Notes under the pieces: generated by a model
Told to the model about the DNA's origin: nothing
What the model saw: the letters and a program-made list of their open reading frames with translations, nothing else
The model's database searches: none
IMG/VR virus record: IMGVR_UViG_3300020416_000001
Location: 1 to 64,000 of that record
Length of the DNA stretch: 64,000 bases
DNA from: a virus
Direction: 5' to 3' (one strand)
In this document: positions 39,694-63,274 of the stretch, piece after piece
How the letters are laid out: the number at the start of each line of letters is the position of its first letter
Position numbering within the stretch: position 1 is the first letter of the stretch
Made by a program: the position numbers and the translations under genes

Positions 39694-39843
39694 ATGGTAC
39701 AAGTTGACAGAGCACAGTGGTTCATCGATTCTGGTATGGTTTTAGTGACTGATCCTGTTGCTGATAAATACCTAAAACAAGTCCCAAAATCGAAGGATGG
39801 CGTACAGGTTCAAAGCAGACAAGAATCTAAGCAGACAGTTTAG
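39694..39843 (+). CDS. 49-aa hypothetical protein before gp25
   Basis: From ATG 39694, preceded by a strong GGAGGA site (39681-39686). MVQVDRAQWFIDSGMVLVTD, then a basic tail. In-frame upstream ATGs at 39613 and 39577 overlap the previous gene and precede the likely promoter. The gp25 start lies inside its last codons. Confidence 0.6.
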   Translation: MVQVDRAQWFIDSGMVLVTDPVADKYLKQVPKSKDGVQVQSRQESKQTV

Positions 39844-42310: not shown

Positions 42311-45300
42311 ATGGTTGCACATAACACAGCAATTCAGGTCTCCCAGAGACTGAACAGTCAGATTCCTGCGTTTATCAAGGAAGATCACGACCAGTTCGTC
42401 AACTTGCTGACAGAGTATTACAAGTCACAAGAGAAATCGGGTCGCCCATACGATGTTCTAAACAGCATCTTATCGTATATCGACATCGGATCAGGTGAAT
42501 TTGATCCTAATTTCTTGTCATCAGAGTCTGCTGTGTTGGAGGCGGTCAATCCTACACAGAATAAGATCGTTGCTGAGAATGTAAACTACTTCTTAGAGAA
42601 GGATGGTACGCTAAAGATTGATGATGAAGTTTTATATTATGAGTCTGTAACACATTCCCCTGACATCGTTTTCACTCCTGGGGTCAACAAACAAGAATTT
42701 GACAGAAAGATACAAGAATTCGAACCAATCAATAATCAGTTTGATAGTTCAAAGACAGAATTTAACTTAAGATTACTCGGTAGACCAGTTACACCTCAGT
42801 CTTCCAATCATCTTTTGGTGATTGTAAATGGCGATTTTATGTTCCCTGACAGGGATTACTTTGTTGAGGGTGACAGGATACGCTTTGTAAACCCTCCTGC
42901 AGCGACTACAGGGGCGTTGACAGGTGCTATCAATACCATTCGTTACCTTATCGGTTACACAAGCGTTCCAGTGCGTTCTCTGGACACCATCACAGTTGAT
43001 GCTGATGCAAAAGAATTTCATCTAAAATTAAATACTCAACCATACACTCCTCTTTCAACAGTTTCTTCAATCGTTGTTGTTAACAGAGTTGAGAAAAGAC
43101 CGTTCGAAGACTTCACAGTTTTTAACGATAAACTCATATTCAAGCAGGATGTATCACAAAATGCTACAATCGACGTAAGATCTGTCGAACTGATCGCTCC
43201 TGAATTTGGTTCAGGTGCTGCAGCAGTCTCCCAAATCGAAGGTGGATCTGTTAGTGACATCCTTGTAAAGAATGGTGGTCAAGGTTATAGAGTAAGTTTT
43301 GCTCCTAGAATCACTATTCAGTCAAATAAAGGTCCTGGTGAGGGTGCAACTGCGGAAGCACTCGTAAATGGCATCAAGAATACTCAACTCTTGTTCCCAG
43401 GTCAAGGATATTCATCTAACAATCCTCCTATCGTAGTTGTGGATGATCCTGCTGATTCAGAAGGCAGTAGAGCACAAATTACAGCAATCGTATCTGATGA
43501 AATCGAAGGAGTCTCGGAACTGCGTGTTACATCGTCTGGATCTGGATATGACCGCATTCCTTCAATTAAGTTTGTTAATCCTGGTGGTGCTACTATCACC
43601 GATCCTGTCGTCGAAGGAGGATCAATCAAAACAGGATCAATCTCAGTCATAGACAGGGGTTCAGGGTATTCATCTCCACCTTTGGTGTATATGGATCCTC
43701 CTACTGGAGATAATGCTATCAATGCTACTGCTATTGCAGTTCTTGATGATGACGGTAGGGTTGAACGTATTGACATCATTTCTAACGGTCAAGGATATGA
43801 AGGTGCTATCAGGGCAAGAATTGTTGACCCTGTTGGTGCACAGATCCTTGATGTGTCTTGTACTGGTGGTAGAGTTACTAATATTGAACTACTGACTGGT
43901 GGTAAGGGATACACAGATGCACCTTCTGTGTATATCGTTGATAATAGAAAGGACACTAATGGTCAACCTATTGGTGGTGAGGGTGCAACAGCAGTTGCTA
44001 CCATCTTCAACGGTGAGATCACTGACATCAATATCACTAGTTTCGGTAACGGATACTCTGATACTGAACCTCCTAAGGTCTTTATCGCTGCTCCTCCTGT
44101 ACCTGAGGCGTCTTGTGACGTTGGTTTTGGAGAGATTACTGGTTTCACTATCCACAGTGACGGATCAGGATACGAACCTTCAGCATTTACTGGAGTAAAG
44201 CGCGGAGTTTCTGGTGTTACATCATTTGACCAGAAAGGTCATCAAATTTACAGCAAAGAATCCAGTCTGGTACAGAGTTCTCACGCTAAGGGAGCAGTTA
44301 TTCATAATCTGGATAATCTTTTTGCTAAAGAATTATACAGAAGATTTGTAAATCAATATCTTCCTAATGCGGAAATTGACTACACAAAAGTCAACGCTCC
44401 GCAGATTATCAAGACTATTTCGGATTTCTACGCATCTAAAGGTACGAAGATCTCTACACAGTACCTCTTTAAGATACTTTACTCCGAAAATGTCGATGTT
44501 TCTTATCCTAAGGATGAGGTTATCAAACCATCTGCTGCAACTTGGAACGTAGATACGGTTCTAAGAGCAGAACTTTTAGAAGGATCTCCTGAGAATCTAC
44601 TCGACTCACAGTTGATTCAGTACATTGACGACGTTGATGTTAACGTTAGAGGTGCATCTGCACTGGTTGAGAACGTTATTGCGATCAATACTGGTGTTGG
44701 TACGGTGTATGAACTTGCAATTTCTGAAGAAACACTGCAGGGTGCATTTACAATTCCATATAAGACCACACTGGTTGAGGAACTTTCTACTACAGAGTCT
44801 ATTATTACAGTTGACTCTACGATTGGTTGGCCAGAGAGAAATGGTACAATCCGCATCAATGACGATGAAGTTGTACAGTACAAAGAGAAAACACTGAACC
44901 AGTTCATCGAATGTACTCGTTCTAAGAACGGTGTAGTCGAAGATTGGGACGCAGGTACTATTGTTCACTCTGACATCTTCGTTTATGTCAACCGTGGCAC
45001 TGATACTGAGTGTAAGTTGCGTGTTCTTGGTATTGCTGATGCAGAATCTACAGTTCTATCTGATAACGGTTCATATTACCTCCCTGGAGATAAACTAAAC
45101 GTTGCATCACTTGGTTCTACAACTAACGACAAGAGAATCACCTCTTGGTTGTACAACGTTAAGAAACTAATCAATATTACTCAGATCATCCCTGGTGGTC
45201 TCAATAATCAGACTGCAACTGTTACCTGCTCTAATAATCACGGTCTGTTGGTTGGTGACACTGTTACCATCTACGGTGCGAACCCAACTGTGTTCAACGG

Positions 45301-48300
45301 AACCTTCTTGGTCACATCCCGTATCAATAACACACAGTTTGAATATAACATTCCTGCACCTGCTCCAAACGAACCACAGGGTAACATTCTTCTTTCTGTT
45401 GACCTGAACAAAGGTAAGTCTCCTGAAGAAGGTATCAGCGTTGCTATCAGAGACTTTACTACTAACGTACAGAATACATTCTTCAATGATGATTATGCAT
45501 ATGTTGCATCTTCAGGTATTCCTAACTATGAAGTTGGTCCTTTCCTAGGATCTGCGCTTCTCCCTGGAAACCAACGTAAGTTGATCCGTATTCCTAGAAC
45601 TATCAATACGATCTCTAAGCGTACAGACACAACATTCGGTCCTATTGGTTCTTGGGTCAATGGTGTATCAACTTGGTCTTACAAGTCACAGAACAAGATT
45701 AAGTTTGGTGGAGTGACTGGAATCAGTATTGATGACCCAGGTAAAGGATATGACGCAGCAAACCCTCCTGTCATTGAGATCAATGGTGGCGGTGGTACTG
45801 GTGCTAAAGCAAGTGTTGTTGTTAATGGTGCTCTAAGTGAAATCCAAGTTTCTTCTGGCGGTACTGGTTATACTAGTTCTCCTCTTGTTTCCATTGTGGG
45901 TGGTGGCGGATTTGGTGCAACTGCTACTGCTGTTATTACTAACGGCGTAGTTTCCAAGATTCTCGTCGAAACCCCAGGTCAGGGTTACACTTCACAACCT
46001 GACGTTTCTATATCTGGTGGAGGTGGTACTGGTTGTGCTGCTACTGCACAGGTACGTGGTCCAATTCAGTCTGTAACTGTAGATTCTGCAGGAGCAGCAT
46101 ATACGGCATCTCCTGAGATCAAACTAAACTCTGGTGAGGGTGCTGTTGCACAACCTATCATCATTAACGGTAGAATCGTTTCTATCGCTATCATTGCAGC
46201 AGGAAGAGGATATACAACCGCTCCTGAGATTGTTATCAACGGAGATGGTTACGGTGCTATTGCAAGAGCAACTATCGGTAATGTTGGTGAGGATAGAGGT
46301 AAGGTTATCGGTGTTACTGTTGTAAACAGAGGTATCGGTTACACTACTGGTAATACAACTATCCGCTTGGAAGCGGTTGGTGAATTGGCAGAGTTCACTG
46401 CAAGTGTATTTGAGTGGACTAGAAACCTTCAAGATGAACTAGGACAGAACTTTGATACAGCACGTGGTTACGTGTTTGCAGGTTATAACACTCAGTATGG
46501 TGGTGAGTACGCACACCTTTCTGATCCTAAGCAATTAAGATACGTTCTTGGTGATAACGTATTCAAGAATCAGGCAACTCAACAGTTACAGGAACTTACA
46601 ACTGGATACCAACACTCACCTATTTTGGGTTGGGCGTTTGATGGTAACCCCATCTACGGACCTTATGGTTACATTGATGCTACTAACCAATCATCTGGTG
46701 TCAGAAGGATTCGTTCATCTTACAGAATCAAACCCGCACTTATCTTCGACGCTGCAACTAACCCAGAACCAGTTAGAGCAGATGGTCCTCTTCTTACTGA
46801 TTACATTGCGGGATCATTCATTGATGACTTCGAATATGTCTTCCAAGAGGGTGATCTAGACCAATATAATGGTCGTTTCTGTAAGACTCCTGACTTCCCT
46901 GAAGGTGTTTACGCATATTTCGTATCAATCGACGCATCTGATGCAGGTAATCCTGTATTCCCTTACATTTGTGGTCCTCAACTGTACTCTTCACCTGATG
47001 AGTGGAACTTCTCTCAGAGTGCTGTACAGACAAATATCCCATCTAACGTGGTTAGATTCCGTGATCCTTATGAGGATGTGGATATTGATATTGATCGTAC
47101 ACCTAACCAAGCAACTGACACTCTTGTTACTGAACTTGGTGAGGATCTTATCTTTGAAATCGAAGATACTAACAGAGACGGTCTTATTAATAACCTAGAA
47201 GATACCACACCTATTCAGATCACTGAAGAACCCGTACTACAATTATTTGATTACTACCCTAAAGTTTCTACAAGATCTGTTGTTGACATTGATATTGAGA
47301 CTACGACTAAATTCGAAGACGCTAAAGTTGACGGATTCGTGGTTGAGAACCCAGGTATATCCTATAAGGTTAATGATAAACTGTTCTTTGATAATGAAGG
47401 AACTGATGGTTTTGGTGCATCTGCAAAAGTTGAGGCAGTTAAGGGTCTAGACATTGCAGGTTACTCTTCTTATATGACTGGTGATCAACCAGTTGGTAAG
47501 ATTACCACTGCAACTGAGCACGAACTCCGTGTAAATGATCAGATTATTGTTACCAGTACACCTATTCTTGATGACACTAACAAGACTTTCAAGGTAAAAG
47601 TCATATCTGGTGTTGAAAGAGTTACTGTTGATCAGTCTGGTTTAGGATACTCTGAGGATATTCCTCCTACTTACGAGGTTATCACTAACAGTGGACAAGA
47701 TTTTAACATCGACATCGTTAGAGATGAAGGTGGTAGAGTAGAGAACGTTAATATTATCAACTCTGGTTCAGGATACGACGAAAACAATCCTCCTCAGATT
47801 CGTGTTTCTCATCCTCAGAGATTCAAGAAAGCAACTTACTTCTTATCATTCTTGAAAGAAGCAGGTTCTACTCTTACTATTAATGACATTAAAGTTGCTG
47901 ATGATCGTACCTTCTATGTTTGTGGTAAGACTGAGATTGCAGATGGTGATGTAGCAGGTATTCTTGCTAAGTTCAATAGTGATGGTAGATTGCTTTGGCA
48001 GCGTACACTTATTCCTACTGTTCCTCAGACTGCTGATAAGTCACTTCAGTGGAAATCACTTCATATTGAGAACAGTAATCCTCATAACATCTACGTTATC
48101 GGTGAGACAGTTCCTAATGTAGGTAATCTTACTCACAACCCAGATATTGTTGTTGCTAAGTATCAGTCAGGATTTAATAACGCTAACAACCCTGATGGTA
48201 TCATTCAGTGGCAGCGTGATATTGCAGGCATCTCTGGTTCTACTAGAAGAGACTATGCTTCTAGCATTAGACTTGACCAAGATGGTCGTGTAATGATTGC

Positions 48301-51300: not shown

Positions 51301-54300
51301 ACTTCTTGTTGAACCTGAGAAAACTATCGCTCCTGTTGGTAATAATGAGTTTGGAAACCCACGTTCCTTCTACTCTACAACCTCAATCAAGGCGATTGGA
51401 CCTATTGCAAGCATTAAACTGGTAAACCCAGGTGGATTCTATCAGAAATTACCTATTGTTACTGATATTGCATCTAATAGAGAGATTGAAAAGGTCCGTG
51501 TTAACAACGGTGGTACTGAATATGTCAACGGTGTGTACTATAACGTTCCTATTGCAGGAGATGGTGAAGGTGCAACCTGTAATATCACTGTTCAGGATGA
51601 CGGAGACTTCACTGGTGTCATTACTGATGTTGTTTTAACCTCTGCAGGTAAGGGTTACACCTTTGCATCGATTGATGTAGACGCTATCCCTGGAATTCTT
51701 GGTCCTCTTCTTGCAGGTTCAGGTGCACAACTAGAAGTTGTGATTCCTTCTGAGGGATCTGGTGCATCTGTATTCTTACAAGGTAAGTCAATCGGACGTA
51801 TCAAGAAACTTAAGAACAACGAATTTGGTTTCGGTTATTCTCACGACTATACTTTGAGACCTGAAATCACTTTCCCCGTGAACCTTCAGTTGTTTAATAC
51901 CGCTATTCTTGCAGAAATCAAGATTACAGACCCTGGTTCTGGTTATACATCAACACCTGCTGTTGTTATCGAAGGTGGTGGCGGTACAGGTGCTCAGGCA
52001 GAAGCAGTTATTAAGAACAATAGACTTTCTGAAGTTATTATTAAGGATCCTGGTGCAGGATACAGTTCTGAACCTACAGTTACACTTAAGTCTGAGTTCA
52101 ACTACGTTGTTAACATTGACTTAGGTTATCTACAGTTTAACTTCCCACACGGTATTACAACTGGTGCTGAGATCCAGTTGAGAGCAGAAGATCTTGGATC
52201 TACAGTTGGTATCCTTCCAAAACCAAGTTCTGCAGGTTTGGTTAGTTTGTCATCATCTCAGACTTACTATGCTATCGCAGGTGAGGCAAATGGTCTTGAA
52301 TCTGACCAACTTCGTATCTCACTGACTAAACTTGACGCTGAATCTGGTTCTTACATTACATTCTTGACACAGGGTGAAGGTAGACAGATTCTCTTGACCG
52401 AAGTATTTGGTGGTCAAGCAACTGCAATCGTTGAGACTTCAAGATTCCTTGAGGGTGAACTTGTTTATCAGGGTTCATCACTTGAACTTGCATCTGCTAC
52501 TGGTTATGTTTCTACTAACGAAGGTTGGCAGATCGGACCTAGAATCCTTAAACTTGAGAACTATGACGGTGTTTGGACTGCAGGTGAGCGTGTAACTGGT
52601 GAAGTTTCCCGTGCATCTGGTTTGATTGATAACCTTTCAATCGCTCGTGGTACTCTTAATATTGACTCTCTTACCAATACCCCTGGTCAGTTCATTGATG
52701 ACGTTGGTAAACCATCTGAAATTGTTCAGAAAATACAAGACTCTTACTTCTATCAGAACTTCTCTTACGTTATTAAGTCTGAAACACCTATTAACACTTG
52801 GAGAAAACCTGTTCTAGAAACAAACCACCCTGTTGGTTTCAACCTCTTCGGTGAACTAGCAATTACTGGTGGTAAGGATATTTCTGGAAGAAAGGTTGTA
52901 TCTGATCTAATCAAAGAGGTTAATATCAATGCGTTCACAAATATTAACCAAATCACATCATTTGCTAACGCACAACCCATTTATACTCAGTTCAACAACA
53001 CTGAGGTGCTCTTCAGACAGAAGAGACTGACTAACTCTGAGGAAATCCTTACTTCTATTGTTAAGAAGATCGATAACATTTCTGATGACTTTGACGGTGT
53101 TAGAACTCAGTTCCCACTGAATGTTGAGGGTAGTTCTATCACTGCAACTGAAGATCAGATGTTTGTGCTACTCAATGGTGTTGCACAGTCACCTGGAACT
53201 TCATTCTCTACATCAGGTCCTTCTATTGTGTTCTCTGAACCACCTAAGGCACCTTCTAGAATTAAGTTTAGAACTGTAACCTTTGCTCAGTTATTAATTA
53301 CTCGTATCACCTTTGATTTGATCGGTGGTATCTTCCCGCTATCTGGTAACAGAGTCAGAGGTCTTGTTTCTGAGGCAACTGCTACTGTAGTCGATTCTGG
53401 TACTGATTATATCGATGTAATTAATATTGAGGGAACTTTCCAAGCAGGAGAGGCAGTTCTTAATAGTGCTACTGGTTTCAACTCAACTATTGCTTCAAAC
53501 GGTGTAAGCGGTCTTTCATCTAAGACAATCTTCGAACAAGGTGAAAGAATTACTAACCTTGATGGTAAGTTTGCAATCATTGAAGAGAACAACCTTGATG
53601 ATGGTAATATCAACAATGAACTGGTTGTTTCTAGAACATCTGGTACTGCTGAGTATGAAACTGGTGAATTTGAGATCAAGTTCAACGATATAATCTATTC
53701 TGCAAGATCTAAGATTGCAGCAACAGTTTCTGCTATCGCTCCTTATCAGGATGCAGTTTCAGAACAGATTATTGACACTGTTGACCTTTCACCTTCATCT
53801 AGTTTCTTTGCTCTTGTATTCCAGAGAGTTCCTTCAATCACATATCCTAACGTTATCCTTGATAACATTGGAGATACAGTTATTAACCCAACTGAACTCT
53901 ATGATATTGAATCACCTAATAACCAAGACTTCCTAGATTTCGAATCTGTTCGTAACCAAGAGATTCGTTATGATGGTTTGACTGGTAATGACTTTGCACC
54001 TGGAACTAACATCAGACTTAAGAAGATCTACTTTGGTAACTCTTCTATTAGAACTGTACACGATACCCGTGCAAATAACGCTGCAGAGGCACTAGTTAAG
54101 AACGACAGATTCATCGCTGAAGAAGCGGTGGGAATGATGTTGAATTTCTACCCCTCCTTTACTGTTCCTACAGGTAAAGTTAATTGTGAGGACGACATCG
54201 TTGATATGCTCAATCTAATTGCTTGGCAACTTGAGCACGATGGTAACTCTGAGGTTTGGGATGCTGCAAACTTCTATGTTCAGAACAATACTGTATATCA

Positions 54301-57300
54301 CGTTGATGGACAGGTTGCTCAGACAATATATGCAATGAATGCAGCGAGAGATCTCGCTAACAAGTGTATTAATATGGTGGACATCACTACTGAGTACACA
54401 ACTCTGTCTCAGTGGAAGGATCTCACTATTACACCTGAATATGAAGTTGTAAGTAATAGTCACGGTGACGCTAGAACCTTGTTGCTTGCTAACAAGTGGT
54501 TTATTGCGTATGAGTCACTTCACTATGCTAAGACTCTAAACCCAGGTTATAACGTATCTGGTGGAGATGAGCATTGCCTCTCTGACATCGTGGATGTTGT
54601 TGAAGCACTTGCATACAACGTTGCACACGGTGGTAACGATTTCATTTGGGAAGCAACAGATAGAATCCTTCACTACGGTGTAACATCTGGTGATAGAGAC
54701 ACTATTGTCAACTCCTTTACAAAGGCAAAGGCAATGTCTCTCGATATTATGAGAAATATTGCTGTTACCAAGGCAGGATCACACGATTGGAATCAGGTAA
54801 CCATTTCTATCACTGCTGACCCTGCAAGTCCAACTTGTCAGGCAGTTGCTGCTTCTATCACAACATTGATGGATATTCTCATCAATGCTCTTGGTACAAC
54901 TGCATCCCCAGGCACTAGAGAAGCATTCCAAGCAGCAGTTACATCAACTGCTCCTCAGGCAGACTACTCACAAGGTAGAACTACGATTCCTAATGAAAAT
55001 GCTTGTGTTGCTCAGACATCTGCTGTTGCAAACTTCTTCAAAATCATTACTGATACTCTATCAGATCCTACTGGAGCAGATCCTGCTACCTATCAGTGGT
55101 CTATCAGCAATGTTCCTAGAATTGCACCTGCATACACCTTTGAAGCGGGTGAGACAATCCGTTCTATCAAGCATTCTTATAAGGACAAATCATCTGGTGG
55201 ATTCTTCAACTTCGGACAAGTTCTTAAGGGTGTCTCCTCTGGTGCTGTTGCAGAGATCATTGGAACCAATGCAGGTAGCAAATGGGTCTATACAAAGGGT
55301 GTTACTGGAGCATTCAACCCTGCTGAGTACATTACAAACTCAACAATCACATATAATAACGTTACAACTGATAAGTTGAACCCTGGAACTGGCACTGGAT
55401 CACTTGAATTTAGTGGTACAAGTTCTAGACTTAGACACGATTCCAATGCAGCATTTGCCTTTGGAACTGGTGATTACACAGTTGAACTCTGGATCTATCC
55501 TACAACTGTATCTGGTACACAACGTATTATAGATTTCAGAACTGCTTCAAGTAGCAATGCAGGTAGCATCTTCTTACAAGGAACATCAATCAAGTTTGGT
55601 ATTGGCGTAAATGACCATATCACTGGATCTGCTGCAGTTCCTACTGCTAATCAGTGGTATCACGTTGCTATCTCTAGAGCATCTAACGTAACTAAGATGT
55701 TTGTCAACGGTCAACCCGTTGGTTCTGATTACACTGACGCTTCTGATTATCCTAACTCTCCAATCACTGTCGGTGCATCTTGGGCAAATGGTGAGACTTT
55801 CACAGGTAATATGGACAACCTTATTATCAGAAAAGGAACCGCCAGCTACTCTAGTGGGTTTACTCCCCCTACTGTTTACGATTTCAAAGCACTTGACATC
55901 TCATTCGGTTTCAATGGTGAATCACCGTTCCCAATGGAACTCTCTGCAGTCTACGCAACATATCAACAGACTATCATCTCATCTGCTAACGCTGACGGTG
56001 TAGAACTCTGGCGTGAAGAGATTATGACAGAGGAGATTGATGTTTCTCGTGATGATTATAGAGATTGTGCTGATATTATTGATAAGAACCGTTTCTGGAT
56101 CGCAGAAGAAGCAGTTGGACGTATGAAGGAGAAATATCCTGCATTTGTCATCCCAGGTGACGGTGGTGGATCTACTCAAGGTACTGACAAGTGTGTTCGT
56201 GACACTAACTCCTTTATTATCCCTGCAATCATTAATGACCTTAAGTTAGGTGGTAACTTCCACACTATCGTTGCAGGTCGTGGATACTTAGAAGGATCTG
56301 GTGCTCTCAAGCACGTTAATGGTGAACTTCTACAGTCAATCTATACTTGGCGTGAAGTTGGTAAGATCTGTATTGACGTTATCACTAAAGATGAATCAGA
56401 TCTAACTGGTGAGTACACAAATAGAATTAGAGTTCCTAATTATTTCTCATCTCCTGCATCATCAGCAATTCAAACATTCATTTCTGACTTGATTGACAAT
56501 ATGTTGGAAGTTATGTCTCCAACAGGTCACAGATACAGAGATGGTGCTGATCTTCTTTACTTCAACCGTGGCGCGATTGCTGATGAAGCAGTCTCTATGA
56601 TGGAGCAAGAATGGAACGTTCTAATCAACTTTGTCCAACAAGATAAGATTGACATTCCTAGCAGAGAGAAATGTGTAAGAGATATTAGAGACCATATCGT
56701 TCCTGCTGTTGCAGGTGACTTGATCACTGGTGGTAACTCAAATATCCAAGGTATGATTGATTCATATCTCGATTCACAAAGCAATATTAACTATATCGAG
56801 ACTGAGTTGCTTGCAATGCTTGATGCTCTTGAGCACGTCAAGTTCCTTTCAAACAAAGCACTTCAGAACCTCTTAGTTGGTAGAAACGAAAACATTGCTA
56901 ACATTGCAGGTACAACACCTCAAACTATCGATGATTTCTATCAACTTCAGTATAGTGACCTAACAGCATACAGAAAAGAGTATGATGCTGCTGTTAATTA
57001 CGATCTAACTGGCGGTGTTATTACTGAGAGCACCTTCTATCCACCTGATCCTAAGATCTTCCAAGGTACACATAGAGCACTTGATTCTGCAAATATCATT
57101 GAAAGAAATGCTCGTACTATTGCAGGTGAGGCAGTTGACATTGTAACTAAGACATCAGCATTCAAGCACTACAACTTCAGAGTTCCTGGTGGTAAAGTTC
57201 ATTGTGAAGACGACATCGTTGATTTCATCAACTCTGTTGCACACGACTTGAGATTCTCATCTAACAGTGAGGTATATGATGCTGCAGCACTATATCTGAA

Positions 57301-60300
57301 TACAGATATGGGTCTGTCACACGTTACTGGTCAATCACAAGAGACAATCTACGCTTACAAGATGGCGAGAGATATGTCAATTCTCGCGATCCGCAACAAA
57401 CTTGGGTTTACTCCCTTCGAGGAAGCAACCACAGGTGGTGGCGGTGGACAAGGTGGAAATGCCATTGGTGGAGGAGTTCCTCGTGGTGATTATGATAATA
57501 ACGCTACTACTAATAAGGACTACGACGCAGGCAATGAAATAGAAAATAACTTGAGATTCATCGCTACTACTGCTGTAGGACGTGGATATGCTCAGTATCC
57601 TAACCTTACATTTGGTGGTTACGGTTATCAGTCTTGTGTCGATGATGTTATTGACATCCTTGAGGCAATGGCGTGGAACCTCAAGCACGGTGGTAATAAC
57701 AAGGTTTGGTATGCAACTGAGTTCTATATTACTGATGCTAACGCTATTCAGCATATCAACTCTCAGGCAACTGAAGTTAAGTACATCTTCGAGCAGGCAC
57801 GTGACATCGCTATTGAGGTGATGAGACAGCAGTTGGTCACTGTAAATGGTTACACAGAAGGGTATCCAGTTTACGATACTACTATTACTATTGACTCTAG
57901 CAGTTCACAAACTGGTCAGTTAACTCCTACAAACGCAACTTATAATCCTGCCACAGGTGATTTGGTCTTGACTAAGACTGGTCACGGTTTGGTAGCAGGT
58001 GACGCTGTACAGATTGCAACTTATGGATTGAAGTTTACTTGTGACTTTGATGGTAATCAGTCAGAGCATACTTATCCAAGACCTCTCGATCCATCAAACG
58101 GTGCTCTTCTCCCTGTCACATCTTCTAATAGTTCTACATTTACAGTCAACGTTGGAACAACTACTAACGTTAACTACGATGTAAGTAACGCAATCTACGA
58201 AGAAGCAACTGGTAATCTATTCCTTGACATCGGTTCTAACACCTTAGATGTTGGCAGACACATCAAGTTACCTGATAATGCAATTACATTCACTTGTACT
58301 AAGGATGGAAATGCTACTAACCATTCATATCCTCGTCCTAGTGACTATGCATCTGGTAAATCTCTAACTGTTCTTGAGATTGGTGATTCAGAATTTACTG
58401 CAACTAATGCAGCATACGTTCCTGCAACTGGTGTTCTAACTCTTACAGTTCCTAACCACGGGTTTGCTAACGGGGACAACGTTCAGATTGTTACTAACTC
58501 ACTGAACTTCACTTGTGATATGGACAACAACTACACTGTTCATTCATATCCTCGTGTATCTGACCCTGCTGCTAACAAGTATCTTCCTGTTGGAAACGTT
58601 ACTACAAATACATTCACTGTAAACGTTGGTACTACAGGCACTGTCAACTTCACACCTACGAACGTTGCCTACAATCCTATTACAGGAAATATGGTTCTGA
58701 CTCTGGGTACTGGTCACGGTCTTGTTACTGGATCACATCTTAAGATCCAACCTAACTCACTCACCTTTACTTGTGAGGAAGACGACAACGCAACCAACCA
58801 CTCATATCCTAGAACTACAACTACAACTCATACTGTTACCGATGCTGCTTACAACGGCACAACTGGTATTATGACGTTGACCATTCCTCAGCACGGGTTC
58901 TCTAATGGTGATCAAATCAAGATTGCTGATAACTCTCTAACCTTTAGATGTGCTGAAGATAACTATGCAACTGATCACACATATCCAAGAAGCACTGATC
59001 CTGCATCAGGATCTTGGTTGGAAATCTCTAACGTAACTGCTAATACCTTCAAGGTTCAGGTTCTCCTTTCTGACGGTATTCCTTCAACTAACGTTACTGC
59101 TCACAACTTCATTTCAGCATCATCTAGTGGTGTTACTTGGAAGAAGGATAGAGCATACGATGTTCCTCTCGAAGTTATTGCTGCTACTGCAACTACAGTC
59201 ACAGTCAACGTTCTTGCCTCTGGTAGAACTCCTTCAACCAACACAACTACACACACATTTGTCGCTGCCACACCAAATGCAATTTCTGCAGGCGGTAACT
59301 ACACTCACACATTTACCAGTGCAGTTGCGAACGGAATCAAGTTCAAGAACGGTAGAATTAAGGTTAACGTTAACCCTGCACCTACTAGCGAACAATATCC
59401 ACATACATTTGTATCTGCTGTATCTAATGCTGTACAGGGTGGTGGTAACTACAATCACACATTCATCAGTTCTACAACCAACTCAATCAGTTGGATCACA
59501 GGTGGTGGTGGAGCAACAAGATGTGCTACTCAAGCATCTTCTATCACAACATTGATGGGAATCACTATAGATCTGTTCAATAGTGGTACAAGTAACCCAC
59601 AAAACTACATCGACGGCATCTCCAGAACTCTGCCAGGCGAATGGCCACTGACAGGTGAGCGTGCTGCCGTTCGTGATCTGACTATCACATATGATCAGGC
59701 AGGATCTGGTCAGTGTAACGTTGAATCCTCAACTATCAGTTCTCTCTTCGACATCGTTATCGGTGTTGTCAAGGATGCTGCTGCAGGCAATGGTAGTTAC
59801 TTCACTAACCAAGGTATTAGTAGAAACGCACCTATACAGAACAACACCCTGCTATTTGGTGGTGGTGTCTGCTATAACGTGACATCTGCTGCTAACGTTC
59901 TTTATGATCTTCTTGAGGATACACTTGGAAGAGCACCTGAGATGTATCGTCAGGCATCACGTATCATTTCACTGAATGATCTCTACATCAATAGAGAGGC
60001 ATATTACAAAACTGTTAACCAATACTCTGGATATACAGGTGATATTTCATTCGGTGATGATATAAGAAAGGCATACATTTATGACCTATTGACTGATGGT
60101 AATGCTAAAACCGTCGAACTGATTAATAATTGGTTTGATGCCGAGGGCAACTTCATTGCATTCCCTAACATCTTCAGAACATATTTGATCTTCCACGCTC
60201 AGGCAACCACGGATATGATTAAGCATATCCTTTCTGGAACTGCTCCTGAACCTGGAACCTATAATTTGGAACCTCTCTACAAAGATAGAGAACTTCGTCC

Positions 60301-63073
60301 AACAATGACTGCTGTCCATAAGATTGAACAGTTATGGCATTTGGTTTACACTGCACTTGCAGAATCCAAGTTACCAACTGTATTCATCAAGCAGGCAATC
60401 GATGTTGGTGTTGATGTGAATTCTGATGGTTCAATATTCAAACCAAATCATCCATTCGAGGCATATGACAGAGTTAATTACACTGTCTTGGGTACAAATA
60501 TTGTGGAACTTGACAGGTCACAATACTACATCCACCCAGACACTACTTCGGACAGAATCTTCTTGGCAGAGTACATTGATGGACACAAACTTACATCTCT
60601 GACCCCAGGACTCCCAGGTGAGATCCACACATTCTCTGTAAGCAGAACCACTGGTATTGAGCGTATCCCAACAACATTTGGTGATCGTGACATTCCTACA
60701 CCTACATCTGGTGGTATAGAACCTGCTGACATCTTCTACGGTACAACATCTGACGCATACGCTGAAGTTATCCGTGTTCAGGACAACCTTGCTGCTATCA
60801 ATTACAGGGTTGTATTCCTTCCTATCACACTTACATCTGCTCCTGAGGTATTCCTTCAGGGTGAACAGATTGTTAAGACAGGTGCTACAGGTAATGAAGG
60901 TAAGATTATCGCTACTGACAACGCAACTTACATAAAAGTAGAGATGACCAGTGGTTCATTTACTGCTACAGACAATATTGAGGGTATAACTTCAGGTGCA
61001 ACTGGTCTTGTTGGCACAGGAATCCACGATAGATTGATCGTCAACTTCAAGCAAGGTGAGTTTATTGCTACTGATAACATCTATTCTAAGGAAGACAGTG
61101 GTAAAGCAAACGCTCTTATCGTCAGAAATAACGATGGTGCTCTAATTGATAACCAATCAGGTAGAATTACCTATGACATTGAGAGTGTTGTTGGTAACTT
61201 TGAACCTAACGATGTTATCTACGGTTCTGTTACTGATCAGATTATCGAGGTTGAAGCATTCACAATCCTCCCAGGATTCGGTGAGTACGTTCATTCTACT
61301 CAGATTACTAAGTTTACATACGCAGGATTGATTACTGACACAGGAGTTACTGACACATTCAACGTTGGTGATGTGTTACAACTCCAGAACGCAGGACAAT
61401 CTGTTGGTCACACCTTCGTGGTCACTGAGCACGACATTGATAACAACGAAATCTACCTCGCAAATGAGACTGGACGCTTTGTTTCTATCGGTGATGATCT
61501 AAGCGTGATCGCAAATGATGCAGCATATCAACTTGCTAAGATCCCACCTGGATCTAACTTCCCAAGCGTTTACACCTCTGGTATCACACTCGTTACACAG
61601 ACTACAACATCTGCCTACGGTAAGGTCGAGAAGATTCAACAAATTGGTCTTCGCTTGATTATTCACCTTGGTGACACTTCTGGAACATTCCTCAAGAATG
61701 CACAGATCATTGGTGATGCAGGATTCAGAGCAGCGTGTTCAGTCGCTAAGACTCTACGCGGGCGTGTGAAGAGATTCTTCAGAGGATTTGATGGTGTTCA
61801 ACAGAACTTCAAGTTAACTACTGGAAACGGTACTGCATACTTCCCAGATCCTGCAGGTCATATGATGATCTTCGTGAATGGTATCCTACAACCTCCAGGT
61901 GGTAACAACGCATTCACTGCATTCTCTGATAACATCCAGTTCACTGAACCACCTGCGATTGGATCTACATTCCACGGCGTGTACGTTGGTAAATTGAGAC
62001 AGTTGGATGACATCTCATTCGACTTCGACTCCTTGAGAAACTCCTTCAACTTGAAACTTGGTGGTGTGTTCTACTCACTTACACTGACTGATGGTGTACA
62101 ATCCAACACCATTCTTCCTGAGAACAACATCATCTGTCAGTTGAACGGTGTTATTCAGGAACCTGGAATTGGTTTCGAGATCGTTGGTTCTAGAATCATC
62201 TTCTCTGAAGTACCTCGTGCAGGTTCAACCTTCGTTGCCTTCTCATACATTGGTTCTGACGTTGACGTTATCGCAGCAACAGTTGTACCACCTATTGAAT
62301 CGGGTGACATTCTACAGATTGAGGGTGAGGACGAGACTAGAGAGGTTGCTCTAATTGAATCTTCTAACTCACTTATCACATTCGAATACTCGGGTGCTGT
62401 TAAGGGACGTAACGGATCTGCTCTCGCGAACATCGAGAAGGGTCGCGTTATCGAAGCAATCCTTACAAACTCTGGTGATGGTTATACTTCACGTCCTAAC
62501 ATTGACGTGATCTCCTCCTCAGGTTTTGGTGCACGCATCAAGGCACTTGTGGGTCTAGCACGCATCGACGTGAAGAACGCAGGACAGGGTTATGTACAAC
62601 CAACCATCAACGTGAACACTACCGTTCCTGATAGTTTCTTCGCACCTTCTGGTGTTGGAGTCAACGGTGGTATTGACATCTACGATCCAAACTACGTTCC
62701 CCCAGGTGAATCTCAGGCACAGGGTGAGCAGGCGATTGTCATTGAATCTCAACCTGTTAACACAACTGTTAACCAAGGAGATACTGCATCATTCACAGTG
62801 GTCGCTTCTACTAACCCTGTCGGTGGCACAATCACCTATCAGTGGCAGAAGAAGAACTACGGTGAAAGTGACTGGAATAACATCAACGGTGCTACTTCCC
62901 CAACATACACAACGCCAGACACAACTCAGGCAGACGGTGGTGATGAATTCAGATGTGGTCTTACCGCAGCGGGTGCAACACCAACATTATCCAACTCTGC
63001 AGTTCTTACAATCAACATTGGAGCAACTACAGTGGATAACTTCACTCCTGATCAGATCTTCGATGACAACTAA
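42311..63073 (+). CDS. giant multidomain virion structural protein (6920 aa)
   Basis: A single uninterrupted frame of 20.8 kb right after gp6, where T4 has gp7; whether its first 600 residues stand in for gp7 is uncertain. Order of parts by residue: fibre-tip-like module (about 140-220); GxGY repeats (320-630, 1140-1350, 1670-1835, 3055-3260, 6715-6770); YHYH-like domain (about 1390-1560); beta-propeller-like repeats (about 1840-2235); LamG/ConA-like domains (about 2245-2445 and 4360-4525); six helical repeats (3920-5180); a Cys-led motif repeated five times; five HxYPR repeats (5200-5590); NGVxQxPG tip modules (about 3590, 6520, 6610); and a final Ig-like domain (6808-6908). Probable long baseplate-attached fibre; contacts with host surface are inferred. 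Confidence 0.85.
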   Translation: MVAHNTAIQVSQRLNSQIPAFIKEDHDQFVNLLTEYYKSQEKSGRPYDVLNSILSYIDIGSGEFDPNFLSSESAVLEAVNPTQNKIVAENVNYFLEKDGTLKIDDEVLYYESVTHSPDIVFTPGVNKQEFDRKIQEFEPINNQFDSSKTEFNLRLLGRPVTPQSSNHLLVIVNGDFMFPDRDYFVEGDRIRFVNPPAATTGALTGAINTIRYLIGYTSVPVRSLDTITVDADAKEFHLKLNTQPYTPLSTVSSIVVVNRVEKRPFEDFTVFNDKLIFKQDVSQNATIDVRSVELIAPEFGSGAAAVSQIEGGSVSDILVKNGGQGYRVSFAPRITIQSNKGPGEGATAEALVNGIKNTQLLFPGQGYSSNNPPIVVVDDPADSEGSRAQITAIVSDEIEGVSELRVTSSGSGYDRIPSIKFVNPGGATITDPVVEGGSIKTGSISVIDRGSGYSSPPLVYMDPPTGDNAINATAIAVLDDDGRVERIDIISNGQGYEGAIRARIVDPVGAQILDVSCTGGRVTNIELLTGGKGYTDAPSVYIVDNRKDTNGQPIGGEGATAVATIFNGEITDINITSFGNGYSDTEPPKVFIAAPPVPEASCDVGFGEITGFTIHSDGSGYEPSAFTGVKRGVSGVTSFDQKGHQIYSKESSLVQSSHAKGAVIHNLDNLFAKELYRRFVNQYLPNAEIDYTKVNAPQIIKTISDFYASKGTKISTQYLFKILYSENVDVSYPKDEVIKPSAATWNVDTVLRAELLEGSPENLLDSQLIQYIDDVDVNVRGASALVENVIAINTGVGTVYELAISEETLQGAFTIPYKTTLVEELSTTESIITVDSTIGWPERNGTIRINDDEVVQYKEKTLNQFIECTRSKNGVVEDWDAGTIVHSDIFVYVNRGTDTECKLRVLGIADAESTVLSDNGSYYLPGDKLNVASLGSTTNDKRITSWLYNVKKLINITQIIPGGLNNQTATVTCSNNHGLLVGDTVTIYGANPTVFNGTFLVTSRINNTQFEYNIPAPAPNEPQGNILLSVDLNKGKSPEEGISVAIRDFTTNVQNTFFNDDYAYVASSGIPNYEVGPFLGSALLPGNQRKLIRIPRTINTISKRTDTTFGPIGSWVNGVSTWSYKSQNKIKFGGVTGISIDDPGKGYDAANPPVIEINGGGGTGAKASVVVNGALSEIQVSSGGTGYTSSPLVSIVGGGGFGATATAVITNGVVSKILVETPGQGYTSQPDVSISGGGGTGCAATAQVRGPIQSVTVDSAGAAYTASPEIKLNSGEGAVAQPIIINGRIVSIAIIAAGRGYTTAPEIVINGDGYGAIARATIGNVGEDRGKVIGVTVVNRGIGYTTGNTTIRLEAVGELAEFTASVFEWTRNLQDELGQNFDTARGYVFAGYNTQYGGEYAHLSDPKQLRYVLGDNVFKNQATQQLQELTTGYQHSPILGWAFDGNPIYGPYGYIDATNQSSGVRRIRSSYRIKPALIFDAATNPEPVRADGPLLTDYIAGSFIDDFEYVFQEGDLDQYNGRFCKTPDFPEGVYAYFVSIDASDAGNPVFPYICGPQLYSSPDEWNFSQSAVQTNIPSNVVRFRDPYEDVDIDIDRTPNQATDTLVTELGEDLIFEIEDTNRDGLINNLEDTTPIQITEEPVLQLFDYYPKVSTRSVVDIDIETTTKFEDAKVDGFVVENPGISYKVNDKLFFDNEGTDGFGASAKVEAVKGLDIAGYSSYMTGDQPVGKITTATEHELRVNDQIIVTSTPILDDTNKTFKVKVISGVERVTVDQSGLGYSEDIPPTYEVITNSGQDFNIDIVRDEGGRVENVNIINSGSGYDENNPPQIRVSHPQRFKKATYFLSFLKEAGSTLTINDIKVADDRTFYVCGKTEIADGDVAGILAKFNSDGRLLWQRTLIPTVPQTADKSLQWKSLHIENSNPHNIYVIGETVPNVGNLTHNPDIVVAKYQSGFNNANNPDGIIQWQRDIAGISGSTRRDYASSIRLDQDGRVMIAGYTDSNATAPDDMWVALMDIDGSIMEKRKIASAAASEHLHQVEWRTDDTFLFTGISDPAGAANIILGETYYDTATIEVVWSKQIESAAYQFADPTFTIDEYGSVYVTATAIDTNGKNYGVLYCKFDNQDYTAVSVSKMYVPTGNYTSCKNAGVAFDVFGNIDVSALVERDFNDVQSVTAKISWNSGNILSAAEAKEDSGIGYHPTCVANDNSGDTLVAGNKVEAQQLAIFNWNTADNLFDETYNDTLKTGTNKQWYATGNAVIDNTKFYNGASSVKLDAPNSLLLQYSTTADVSVEWTMEGWFALGATQYAAQASKPEFFGIYSQLAQEVKVGVDGTSGSANFGKIFLDLNGTTSYSTGTAFWTGFNSEAWVHVAISKERPGVGSYIYRIYVNGVEAHSVTSASVDVNMMQVTLGPISTPSSQNNWIGWVDNFVVTPSAKYTDAFTAGLITGTNKVTEAFIYKIDKDKTKLGTFTLNDVETGHTLTTSATSNYTFNTQPVSVNPWLIGPAGIQILDYSDVVSTHVPGVYTVTSTDEAWASRTATIPTQGGKKLLLTTKVIPKFYIRDAKYTSIDLVKTITFNQPATFTKGTVLQQYSTIGGNDVVSAYGTVVEVGTSSCKIGKIIGSFDTSKLLKSTAGDVNETDKEFTVLTTTPVWEQNQNYDVGDIVYSNGKIYTSGTAATAGPIAPNHTSGTVSDGNINWAFTSVAGTFSVDLANSVHGSGTLAQFASWKPFNASDYTIRIQQIYDDSDFIKGDTIDADAVNLTFDVDATGKIATFGGLVGVKQFNLQAKLNKDVIPSQGLTNTDLVYCSANTRHNFAATDIIFTEGFSTNEYNGSFFVEEVFTSRDFTYKLRSTAVQDPTFSGSGSSVSNVNIFAKHPKFLFVRGHQYIFDLDDSSNLGYYLSFSKDNQYKLEYPFINIIREGTPGFTDDDSPTPLVKFVINDDVTNISYYFDPSRTTADNSPVGEGSFIDVIESPYQGTFTISKVSSDGLEFDFPLLVEPEKTIAPVGNNEFGNPRSFYSTTSIKAIGPIASIKLVNPGGFYQKLPIVTDIASNREIEKVRVNNGGTEYVNGVYYNVPIAGDGEGATCNITVQDDGDFTGVITDVVLTSAGKGYTFASIDVDAIPGILGPLLAGSGAQLEVVIPSEGSGASVFLQGKSIGRIKKLKNNEFGFGYSHDYTLRPEITFPVNLQLFNTAILAEIKITDPGSGYTSTPAVVIEGGGGTGAQAEAVIKNNRLSEVIIKDPGAGYSSEPTVTLKSEFNYVVNIDLGYLQFNFPHGITTGAEIQLRAEDLGSTVGILPKPSSAGLVSLSSSQTYYAIAGEANGLESDQLRISLTKLDAESGSYITFLTQGEGRQILLTEVFGGQATAIVETSRFLEGELVYQGSSLELASATGYVSTNEGWQIGPRILKLENYDGVWTAGERVTGEVSRASGLIDNLSIARGTLNIDSLTNTPGQFIDDVGKPSEIVQKIQDSYFYQNFSYVIKSETPINTWRKPVLETNHPVGFNLFGELAITGGKDISGRKVVSDLIKEVNINAFTNINQITSFANAQPIYTQFNNTEVLFRQKRLTNSEEILTSIVKKIDNISDDFDGVRTQFPLNVEGSSITATEDQMFVLLNGVAQSPGTSFSTSGPSIVFSEPPKAPSRIKFRTVTFAQLLITRITFDLIGGIFPLSGNRVRGLVSEATATVVDSGTDYIDVINIEGTFQAGEAVLNSATGFNSTIASNGVSGLSSKTIFEQGERITNLDGKFAIIEENNLDDGNINNELVVSRTSGTAEYETGEFEIKFNDIIYSARSKIAATVSAIAPYQDAVSEQIIDTVDLSPSSSFFALVFQRVPSITYPNVILDNIGDTVINPTELYDIESPNNQDFLDFESVRNQEIRYDGLTGNDFAPGTNIRLKKIYFGNSSIRTVHDTRANNAAEALVKNDRFIAEEAVGMMLNFYPSFTVPTGKVNCEDDIVDMLNLIAWQLEHDGNSEVWDAANFYVQNNTVYHVDGQVAQTIYAMNAARDLANKCINMVDITTEYTTLSQWKDLTITPEYEVVSNSHGDARTLLLANKWFIAYESLHYAKTLNPGYNVSGGDEHCLSDIVDVVEALAYNVAHGGNDFIWEATDRILHYGVTSGDRDTIVNSFTKAKAMSLDIMRNIAVTKAGSHDWNQVTISITADPASPTCQAVAASITTLMDILINALGTTASPGTREAFQAAVTSTAPQADYSQGRTTIPNENACVAQTSAVANFFKIITDTLSDPTGADPATYQWSISNVPRIAPAYTFEAGETIRSIKHSYKDKSSGGFFNFGQVLKGVSSGAVAEIIGTNAGSKWVYTKGVTGAFNPAEYITNSTITYNNVTTDKLNPGTGTGSLEFSGTSSRLRHDSNAAFAFGTGDYTVELWIYPTTVSGTQRIIDFRTASSSNAGSIFLQGTSIKFGIGVNDHITGSAAVPTANQWYHVAISRASNVTKMFVNGQPVGSDYTDASDYPNSPITVGASWANGETFTGNMDNLIIRKGTASYSSGFTPPTVYDFKALDISFGFNGESPFPMELSAVYATYQQTIISSANADGVELWREEIMTEEIDVSRDDYRDCADIIDKNRFWIAEEAVGRMKEKYPAFVIPGDGGGSTQGTDKCVRDTNSFIIPAIINDLKLGGNFHTIVAGRGYLEGSGALKHVNGELLQSIYTWREVGKICIDVITKDESDLTGEYTNRIRVPNYFSSPASSAIQTFISDLIDNMLEVMSPTGHRYRDGADLLYFNRGAIADEAVSMMEQEWNVLINFVQQDKIDIPSREKCVRDIRDHIVPAVAGDLITGGNSNIQGMIDSYLDSQSNINYIETELLAMLDALEHVKFLSNKALQNLLVGRNENIANIAGTTPQTIDDFYQLQYSDLTAYRKEYDAAVNYDLTGGVITESTFYPPDPKIFQGTHRALDSANIIERNARTIAGEAVDIVTKTSAFKHYNFRVPGGKVHCEDDIVDFINSVAHDLRFSSNSEVYDAAALYLNTDMGLSHVTGQSQETIYAYKMARDMSILAIRNKLGFTPFEEATTGGGGGQGGNAIGGGVPRGDYDNNATTNKDYDAGNEIENNLRFIATTAVGRGYAQYPNLTFGGYGYQSCVDDVIDILEAMAWNLKHGGNNKVWYATEFYITDANAIQHINSQATEVKYIFEQARDIAIEVMRQQLVTVNGYTEGYPVYDTTITIDSSSSQTGQLTPTNATYNPATGDLVLTKTGHGLVAGDAVQIATYGLKFTCDFDGNQSEHTYPRPLDPSNGALLPVTSSNSSTFTVNVGTTTNVNYDVSNAIYEEATGNLFLDIGSNTLDVGRHIKLPDNAITFTCTKDGNATNHSYPRPSDYASGKSLTVLEIGDSEFTATNAAYVPATGVLTLTVPNHGFANGDNVQIVTNSLNFTCDMDNNYTVHSYPRVSDPAANKYLPVGNVTTNTFTVNVGTTGTVNFTPTNVAYNPITGNMVLTLGTGHGLVTGSHLKIQPNSLTFTCEEDDNATNHSYPRTTTTTHTVTDAAYNGTTGIMTLTIPQHGFSNGDQIKIADNSLTFRCAEDNYATDHTYPRSTDPASGSWLEISNVTANTFKVQVLLSDGIPSTNVTAHNFISASSSGVTWKKDRAYDVPLEVIAATATTVTVNVLASGRTPSTNTTTHTFVAATPNAISAGGNYTHTFTSAVANGIKFKNGRIKVNVNPAPTSEQYPHTFVSAVSNAVQGGGNYNHTFISSTTNSISWITGGGGATRCATQASSITTLMGITIDLFNSGTSNPQNYIDGISRTLPGEWPLTGERAAVRDLTITYDQAGSGQCNVESSTISSLFDIVIGVVKDAAAGNGSYFTNQGISRNAPIQNNTLLFGGGVCYNVTSAANVLYDLLEDTLGRAPEMYRQASRIISLNDLYINREAYYKTVNQYSGYTGDISFGDDIRKAYIYDLLTDGNAKTVELINNWFDAEGNFIAFPNIFRTYLIFHAQATTDMIKHILSGTAPEPGTYNLEPLYKDRELRPTMTAVHKIEQLWHLVYTALAESKLPTVFIKQAIDVGVDVNSDGSIFKPNHPFEAYDRVNYTVLGTNIVELDRSQYYIHPDTTSDRIFLAEYIDGHKLTSLTPGLPGEIHTFSVSRTTGIERIPTTFGDRDIPTPTSGGIEPADIFYGTTSDAYAEVIRVQDNLAAINYRVVFLPITLTSAPEVFLQGEQIVKTGATGNEGKIIATDNATYIKVEMTSGSFTATDNIEGITSGATGLVGTGIHDRLIVNFKQGEFIATDNIYSKEDSGKANALIVRNNDGALIDNQSGRITYDIESVVGNFEPNDVIYGSVTDQIIEVEAFTILPGFGEYVHSTQITKFTYAGLITDTGVTDTFNVGDVLQLQNAGQSVGHTFVVTEHDIDNNEIYLANETGRFVSIGDDLSVIANDAAYQLAKIPPGSNFPSVYTSGITLVTQTTTSAYGKVEKIQQIGLRLIIHLGDTSGTFLKNAQIIGDAGFRAACSVAKTLRGRVKRFFRGFDGVQQNFKLTTGNGTAYFPDPAGHMMIFVNGILQPPGGNNAFTAFSDNIQFTEPPAIGSTFHGVYVGKLRQLDDISFDFDSLRNSFNLKLGGVFYSLTLTDGVQSNTILPENNIICQLNGVIQEPGIGFEIVGSRIIFSEVPRAGSTFVAFSYIGSDVDVIAATVVPPIESGDILQIEGEDETREVALIESSNSLITFEYSGAVKGRNGSALANIEKGRVIEAILTNSGDGYTSRPNIDVISSSGFGARIKALVGLARIDVKNAGQGYVQPTINVNTTVPDSFFAPSGVGVNGGIDIYDPNYVPPGESQAQGEQAIVIESQPVNTTVNQGDTASFTVVASTNPVGGTITYQWQKKNYGESDWNNINGATSPTYTTPDTTQADGGDEFRCGLTAAGATPTLSNSAVLTINIGATTVDNFTPDQIFDDN
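43266..44190 (+). repeat. GxGY repeat array, first cluster (in giant gene)
   Basis: Eight repeats of about 40 residues each, with core G-x-G-Y-x-x-x-P and a following beta strand (GGQGYRVSFAPRITIQ, GQGYSSNNPPIVVV, SGSGYDRIPSIKF, GSGYSSPPLVYM). Later clusters at 45731-46350, 47329-47812, 51480-52090 and 62460-62620 bring the total to about 23. Also present in the 1143-aa protein. Confidence 0.75.
46480..46995 (+). other. YHYH-like domain encoded within the giant gene
   Basis: YQHSPILGWAFDGNPIYGPY and then DQYNGRFCKTPDFPEGVYAYF fit the YHYH domain. The following truncated gene at 63274 has the same sequence blocks (GQYHYRD, CFDGYPIYGPYGY, DAYNGRFCHT). Confidence 0.75.
47827..49010 (+). other. 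beta-propeller-like region in the giant gene
   Basis: About six repeats with a strand pair such as DDRTFYVCGKTEIADGDVAG, ILAKFNSDGRLLWQR, HNIYVIGETV and RVMIAGYTDS. The alternation of 'G-Y/K-T' and 'D-G-x-x-x-W' resembles SBBP/delta-60 propeller blades. Probable ligand- or partner-binding module. Confidence 0.55.
49050..49640 (+). other. LamG/ConA-like domain, first copy (giant gene)
   Basis: VEWTMEGWFALGAT, AWVHVAISKERPGVGSYIYRI and YVNGVEAHSVTS are the typical strands of a ConA-like sandwich that often binds sugars. A second copy is at about 55390-55885. Confidence 0.7.
54070..57845 (+). repeat. six helical repeats of about 110 residues (giant gene)
   Basis: Copies begin near 54070, 54460, 56050, 56535, 57060 and 57515. 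Core pattern: N-R-x-I-A-x-E-A-V-x-x-M, a gap, C-x-x-D-I-x-D-x-I-x-x-x-A-x-D-L, GGN-x-x-x-(W/Y)-x-A, then a third helix. A LamG-like module lies between the second and third copies. Confidence 0.75.
55390..55885 (+). other. LamG/ConA-like domain, second copy (giant gene)
   Basis: GTGDYTVELWIYPTTVSGTQ, WYHVAISRASNVTKMFVNGQ and NMDNLIIRKGTA form the standard strand order. Occurs between helical repeats 2 and 3. Confidence 0.7.
57915..59075 (+). repeat. five HxYPR repeats of about 75-85 residues (giant gene)
   Basis: Each has Y-x-P-x-T-G-x-x-x-L-T, H-G-(F/L)-x-x-G-D-x-(I/V), S/L-x-F-x-C-x-x-D and ends in H-(S/T)-Y-P-R. The five tails are HTYPRP, HSYPRP, HSYPRV, HSYPRT and HTYPRS. Predicted beta-structured. 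Confidence 0.8.
62735..63035 (+). other. C-terminal Ig-like domain of the giant protein
   Basis: VIESQPVNTTVNQGDTASF, ITYQWQKK, SPTYTTP and GDEFRCGLTAAG follow the order of an I-set-like Ig domain, which phages use as an accessory surface-binding module. Confidence 0.75.
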
Positions 63074-63076: not shown

Positions 63077-63274
63077 ATGGAAGATAATGAATTCTATTGT
63101 GAGTGGAGGATGGGAATCCACGAACTTCGTGCATTCTACGATCACCTTACTTACTCGATCAAGATGTGGCCAGGTTCTCCTGCGAGACCTGCTGATGAAC
63201 AAGTGTTTCTCGAACGCTTGAAGAAACAAACTTTTGCGATGATCTGTGAATATAACCTTACGGAAATCGACTAA
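63077..63274 (+). CDS. small conserved hypothetical protein
   Basis: A 65-aa protein, start three bases after the giant gene's stop. CEWRMGIHELRAFYDHLTYSI and a WPGSPARPADEQVFLERLK segment are compact and helical. The last base of its stop is the first of the next ATG. Function unknown. Confidence 0.7.
   Translation: MEDNEFYCEWRMGIHELRAFYDHLTYSIKMWPGSPARPADEQVFLERLKKQTFAMICEYNLTEID

Follow-up and report, generated by a model that had tools for sequence, protein, structure and literature searches.

The window analysed here, bases 1-64000 of a virus record of 171,756 bases, contains a giant open reading frame of 6920 codons at 42311-63073 on the plus strand, which starts with ATG at 42311, reaches its stop at 63073 and has no internal stop codons; a frame of this length cannot be a product of chance. 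It is preceded directly by a gp6-like baseplate wedge gene (40208-42292, plus strand; phrog_219, E 1.6e-197), and before that by a gene that order and PHROG matches (phrog_261 and phrog_43) name as a gp25-like baseplate wedge gene (39797-40204, plus strand). An earlier note on this DNA had described a single intact gene for a 6920-aa structural protein after gp6, and the frame and its place bear this out. The protein is of the PHROG 701 / T4-GC969 kind. The PHROG 701 profile, which has 6136 positions, aligns to the giant in a first, unbroken stretch over aa 8-3333 with 4173.8 bits, and in the C-terminal half with 2281.5 bits spread over 13 stretches.

Record tables list a giant-type gene in Syn19, ACG-2014b, S-RIM2, S-RIM4, S-RIM8, syn9, S-H38, S-SZBM1, P-RSM4, P-RSM6, S-P4, S-SSM4 and P-HM1. 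The earlier note had called for a comparison of gene length between strains and had considered virion proteins of this size rare; the orthologues range from 4446 aa (P-HM1) to 8573 aa (P-RSM6), and the supposed rarity does not hold, the family being common in the Kyanoviridae and having its own PHROG. Translation of six independently sequenced relatives (Syn19, 6483 aa; syn9, 6076; S-RIM8, 6395; S-RIM4, 6026; S-H38, 5512; P-HM1, 4446) gave, in all six, a single frame with no internal stops at the giant's place, so that an assembly error joining separate genes, which the same note had named as a finding that would speak against it, is ruled out. The P-RSM6 member is longer still (103907-129628, 8573 aa), and the P-HM1 orthologue is shorter and more diverged than the other five relatives compared. 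The labels of the orthologues differ from record to record, and include structural protein, putative fiber, gp7, baseplate wedge initiator and hypothetical.

The Syn19 orthologue (Syn19_088) is tagged T4-GC969, and passages of Sullivan et al. 2010 (PMC3037559) place T4-GC969 among 41 proteins detected by mass spectrometry in purified S-SM1 virions. The presence of the family in virions, which rests on the S-SM1 member and hence on a different phage from that of the window, supports the assignment as a structural protein; taken with the intact orthologues, it means that the gene is no artefact and that its family does occur in virions. The gene itself is ordinary for its already known family, with no novelty per se.

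Beyond the giant, the record continues with a 580-aa gene that carries a second YHYH domain (63274-63999 in the window and to 65016 in the record, plus strand; PF14240, E 2.6e-29), a gp9/10-like connector with the T4_gp9_10_N domain (65044-66720), a 623-aa gene (66725-68596), gp8 (68633-70168), a gene of 2403 aa where VrlC normally lies (70173-77384), named VrlC by position and size, and, from 77921, a further gene, separate from the giant, that encodes an Mtd N-terminal domain. The 580-aa gene has PHROG segments in common with the giant's YHYH part. The gene order resembles that of named cyanophages; in Syn19 it reads gp6-giant-gp9, and here one YHYH gene lies between the giant and the T4_gp9_10_N gene. 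These neighbours bear on the question, posed in the earlier note, of whether one giant chain stands in for wedge components, gp7 among them, and the long fibres, or is cut after translation to yield separate proteins. Its position directly after gp6 and the gp7 annotation of the orthologues in P-HM1 and S-RIM8 would agree with such a role, but the gp25- and gp6-like genes precede it, both gp8 and the gp9-like connector are present downstream and so are not replaced, and the Mtd-type gene stands apart. A VrlC-sized gene also follows, and VrlC is the published substitute for gp7, which is described as absent and apparently replaced by VrlC (passages of PMC7029224). On this gene order we consider it very improbable that the giant takes the place of gp7 and the long fibres or is cut into wedge and fibre parts.

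The giant itself has two conserved ends and a middle that varies. Its N-terminal scaffold (aa 9-3765; 42335-53605, plus strand) is collinear and ∼43-44% identical with those of S-RIM8 and S-RIM4, and includes a YHYH domain (aa 1373-1542; 46427-46936; PF14240, E 6.5e-30). A C-terminal segment (aa 6101-6792; 60611-62686) shows ∼43-47% identity to its counterparts in five of the six relatives and is followed by a weak Ig-like end (aa 6810-6877; 62738-62941; PF13927, E 0.01). Between these, from about aa 3770 to 6100, the alignments with relatives break up mostly into scattered, out-of-order pieces. Judged from these alignments, the middle is a variable, putative display region that holds a LamG / concanavalin-like domain (aa 4382-4506; 55454-55828; PF13385, E 2.9e-19), five HxYPR repeats (aa 5253-5560; 58067-58990) and phycobiliprotein-like repeats, all on the plus strand. 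The YHYH, LamG and HxYPR parts had been recognized in the earlier note and are recovered here, while its Ig-like part is reduced to a weak match; the helical part that it listed is real, and its phycobiliprotein identity had been missed. Residues ∼144-413 of the giant (42740-43549) are 24-28% identical to the C-terminal segment of the relatives' giants, which suggests that the two conserved ends go back to an ancient duplication within the gene.

The helical part is made up of seven copies of a domain of ∼100 residues, all on the plus strand. The first two lie between the N-terminal scaffold and the LamG domain: copy 1 at aa 3923-4022 (54077-54376; Cys3959 in the motif CEDD) and copy 2 at aa 4054-4150 (54470-54760; Cys4089, CLSD). 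Copy 3 (aa 4584-4693; 56060-56389; Cys4628, CVRD), copy 4 (aa 4743-4854; 56537-56872; Cys4788, CVRD), copy 5 (aa 4925-5030; 57083-57400; Cys4965, CEDD) and copy 6 (aa 5072-5173; 57524-57829; Cys5109, CVDD) follow between LamG and the HxYPR repeats. These six repeats have invariant columns N, IA, C, D and N, and a profile search adds a seventh copy without the Cys (aa 5880-5975; 59948-60235; E 7.3e-20).

Several profile comparisons connect this domain to phycobiliproteins. A Pfam search with the whole C-terminal half of the giant gives PF00502 (Phycobilisome) with E 3.4e-7 and 30.8 bits against a cut-off of 22.2, while the best single copy, copy 3, reaches E 0.0011 and 19.3 bits, under that same cut-off. 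With the profile of the six window repeats, 59 of the 60 PDB matches listed are phycobiliproteins or 8u0f, a "bacterial fluorescent protein" (best E 0.0018); with a profile of 53 diverse phage copies, the best 60 of 142 matches are all phycobiliprotein subunits or 8u0f, and the best E improves to 6.8e-7. An hhalign comparison with four host phycoerythrin subunits, taken from plasmid records, gives a probability of 94.7% and E 6e-8. At Pfam E values up to 0.1, 21 of the 53 copies match PF00502 on their own, whereas eight other families match one copy each and none matches more than one. In the reciprocal direction, a profile of five host proteins was run against the 6370 phage ORFs of the fetched loci, and all 185 of its domain matches fall on the phycobiliprotein-like domain; the same profile has no match among the reversed ORFs.

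Structure prediction gives a concordant picture. The AlphaFold2 model of copy 1, built from a 112-row alignment, has a pLDDT of 94.3 and a pTM of 0.86, and all 50 VIA-align rows listed for this model are phycobiliprotein entries, with 8u0f counted among them. The best row covers 104 of 108 residues at 2.1 A and chain residues 36-149, with a Z of 12.5, a value to be read with the alignment tool's caution that unrelated helical models may score as high as Z 13. Foldseek likewise returns phycobiliprotein entries, again with 8u0f, in its 50 listed rows, yet the best E is 0.06 and none is below 0.001. Because of the weak Foldseek E and the high chance Z of helical models, we take the predicted fold to support, not to carry, the homology claim. 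In nearly all VIA-align rows the match starts at chain residue 34-37 of the phycobiliproteins, and, since the aligned part begins at about residue 36, the N-terminal phycobiliprotein helices appear to be missing. A tandem model of copies 3 and 4, of moderate quality only (pLDDT 74), shows no helix in the stretch before copy 4 (residues 124-148). We class the domain as a relative of phycobiliproteins rather than as an antenna protein because it lacks these helices before the globin core. On profiles and predicted structure together, the homology of the giant's helical repeats to phycobiliproteins is well supported. The literature covered (titles, abstract openings and passages, with subscription papers mostly outside reach) yielded no report of a phycobiliprotein-like virion protein; the kinship appears to be new, and gives that part of a very large phage protein family its first identity.

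A tblastn survey was run three times over 50,697 phage records and matched 351, 334 and 302 of them, all Synechococcus, Prochlorococcus or cyanophage by name except for one "Marine virus", which its record assigns to the Kyanoviridae. No phycobiliprotein-like domain is present in T4 or in the pelagiphage HTVC008M, and a fold search of BFVD also lists uncultured phages of unknown host. A scan of bacterial genome contigs with a single divergent copy as query, which remoter relatives could escape, gave 55 pattern matches and no relative. Within the 16-cyanophage comparison published in 2010, twelve records were covered, and nine of them have the domain, the exceptions being P-SSM2, S-SSM7 and S-SM2; Syn1, Syn33, S-SSM5 and S-ShM2 lie outside the twelve, and S-SSM5 and S-ShM2 are among the tblastn matches. 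In S-PM2 the domains sit in a short tail fibre CDS (165928-177267), inside which the record annotates a run of tRNAs, an oddity of annotation.

The confinement of the domain to cyanophages among named records, and its predicted fold, which is that of antenna subunits, could be taken to mean that it mimics the phycobilisome, binding host linkers or degradation or repair proteins upon entry or while particles assemble, to disturb or exploit the antenna with no need of pigment. Virion tail parts, however, mostly remain outside the host cell. Moreover, Prochlorococcus phages are among the carriers, though their hosts lack intact phycobilisomes (passages of PMC3037559), and we regard such mimicry as a remote prospect.

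At the bilin site, the phage Cys aligns with the bilin-carrying Cys of the host chains, and the Asp three residues on matches the host Asp. In the window, six of the seven copies have the Cys and Asp of the CxRD motif and two have it in full. For the family, 628 phage copies from 159 loci were reduced to 166 near-full-length clusters at 70% identity; both Cys and Asp of CxxD are present in 143 of these and CxRD in 81, with the Arg position occupied by Asp in 47. Exactly one Cys occurs in the domain in 108 of the 166 clusters. A disulphide bond within the domain is thus unlikely in those clusters and is disfavoured as the role of the Cys, bonds between domains being a separate possibility. Many phycobiliproteins are described as having the motif CXRD, as are two of the bilin biosynthesis-associated globins (BBAGs), BBAG-1 and BBAG-3 (Rockwell et al. 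2023, passages of PMC10151467).

The same columns allow a reading without pigment, in which the domains, while homologous to phycobiliproteins, serve as rigid helical spacers or adhesion modules in the tail, folding accounts for the retained Cys and Asp, and the CpeT-type lyases of these phages act in host light harvesting, the role that the literature assumes for them. The loss of the Cys in some copies (copy 7 of the window, and 19 of the 163 clusters with a residue at that column), the frequent Asp in place of the CxRD Arg and the missing N-terminal helices would all sit well with it, as would the site preference of T-type lyases, which are known for Cys-153 of beta chains and not for the Cys-84-like site (passages of PMC10452541). 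Yet few columns are conserved in the family, whose mean column identity is 27%, and Cys (144 of 163) and Asp (153 of 166) belong to them; the distribution of CpeT, given below, also weighs against this reading. We find this pigment-free reading a serious contender, one to which we lend distinctly less than even credence.

A phage CpeT profile matches the same nine of the twelve records of the published set that bear the domain and none of the three that do not, so that CpeT presence follows the domain in 12 of 12; it has no match in T4 or HTVC008M. By Fisher's exact test, computed by hand and with relatedness not removed, 9/9 against 0/3 has a chance of 1 in 220, and five of those nine (Syn19, syn9, P-RSM4, P-HM1 and S-PM2) had been reached through matches to the gene or the domain. 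Of the seven records fetched by accession, after the published CpeT table was known, four carry domain and CpeT and three lack the two (1 in 35). CpeT is also present in every one of twelve further named records, which were chosen because they matched the giant gene or the domain. In total, each of the 21 domain-bearing named cyanophage records covered has a CpeT-type bilin lyase and none of the five without the domain does, in a selected set of which 17 of the 21 were reached via matches to the giant gene or domain and in which kinship is uncorrected. The two genes also adjoin each other in one lineage, that of S-PM2-like phages, where 40 contigs, some of them near duplicates, extend for 2.5 kb or more upstream of the tail ORF that carries the domain. 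In 37 of these CpeT precedes that ORF by 3-1809 bp and is on the same strand (the misses are L202, L204 and L248). A long distance separates the two genes in Syn19-like phages. A phage CpeT has reportedly been studied by Gasper et al. in 2017.

The window's own record encodes PcyA, with a match to the NCBIfam phycocyanobilin:ferredoxin oxidoreductase family above the cut-off and PcyA as its best PDB match; neither a haem oxygenase nor a match to CpeT was found in its 171,756 bases. Two longer relatives, G001 (187 kb) and G002 (182 kb), each have two CpeT genes in tandem together with a bilin reductase and the domain. Window base 99 aligns to base 3333 of the G001 stretch, which puts the CpeT genes of G001 ∼0.8-1.6 kb ahead of the point where the window's record would begin. 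CpeT is therefore probably absent because the record starts ∼0.8 kb short of its place. The tandem CpeT-like genes of G001 and G002 have diverged from each other, perhaps with a separate target site for each. Bilin reductases are not tied to the domain, since P-SSM2 and S-SSM7 encode one and have no domain. According to Table 3 of PMC3037559, in the passages available, PebS or PcyA is present in 6/6 Prochlorococcus phages as against 1/10 Synechococcus phages, and the role of phage pcyA and pebS is there called a mystery. This host skew fits a role in supplying bilin in bilin-poor hosts, but it also fits other uses.

These observations suggest the following arrangement. The giant would be a tail- or baseplate-associated virion protein whose N-terminal ∼3765 and C-terminal ∼690 residues form a fixed scaffold, probably anchored, to judge by gene order, at the baseplate wedge, with gp6 and the gp9-like connector close by. 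The variable middle would display binding modules, namely the lectin-like LamG domain, the HxYPR repeats and the seven phycobiliprotein homologues, the last probably acquired from a host bilin-binding globin and then multiplied. The CpeT-type lyase of the phage would attach to the conserved Cys a bilin that comes either from phage PcyA or PebS or from host synthesis, and the pigment in assembled tails might stabilise the modules or serve a light-dependent or contact function. The proposal that the domains bind bilins in the virion via CpeT, and that the tails are thus pigmented, draws on the homology, the predicted fold, the conservation of Cys and Asp, the co-occurrence with CpeT and its adjacency in one lineage, the PcyA of the record and the presence of the family in virions. 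Against it we count the Cys lost in copy 7 and in a minority of clusters, the frequent Asp for Arg, the missing N-terminal helices, the weak Foldseek E values, the different Cys used by T-type lyases, the reductases without domain, the selected and kinship-uncorrected set behind the co-occurrence, the single lineage with near-duplicate contigs behind the adjacency and the lack of a CpeT match in the record. Weighing the two sides, we judge it evenly balanced whether the tails carry bilin in this way. More tentatively, and with rather more doubt than belief, we extend the proposal to T4-like cyanophage virions in general, which would be biliproteins loaded by CpeT, with PcyA, PebS and HO1 supplying the pigment in bilin-poor hosts such as Prochlorococcus.

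Were this so, the bilin genes of cyanophages would serve the particle and not host photosynthesis, a photosynthetic antenna fold would have been recruited into a virus particle, and adsorption or tail function could be light-dependent. The bilin-gene mystery would find a concrete answer in a phage protein that is related to what the lyase normally acts on, occurs in the same genomes and belongs to a virion protein family.

Set beside known systems, the giant is closest to the T4-GC969 / PHROG 701 family of the Kyanoviridae (Syn19_088, the S-SM1 protein and the "putative fiber" of syn9), with which it has in common the place after gp6, a similar length, profile matches in both halves and the conserved ends; it carries seven phycobiliprotein-like copies where Syn19, syn9 and S-SM1 have three, and otherwise nothing essential differs. 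With the PF00502 phycobiliproteins (phycocyanin, phycoerythrin and allophycocyanin) the domains share a sequence profile, the predicted fold over residues 36-149, the Cys and Asp of CxRD and a conserved Asn. Unlike them, they are repeats embedded in a virion protein, the N-terminal helices are absent from the aligned part, the CxRD Arg is often replaced, and bilin binding is, on our proposal, only putative. The BBAGs, likened here by description only, are likewise non-antenna relatives of phycobiliproteins near bilin genes, with CXRD in BBAG-1 and BBAG-3, but they are single cellular proteins with shown bilin binding, and passages of PMC10151467 mention no phage member among them. Finally, the auxiliary genes CpeT, PcyA, PebS and HO1 of cyanophages provide for the supply and attachment of bilin in the same phages as the domain; so far explained by host light harvesting, they may have in this domain a phage-encoded acceptor.
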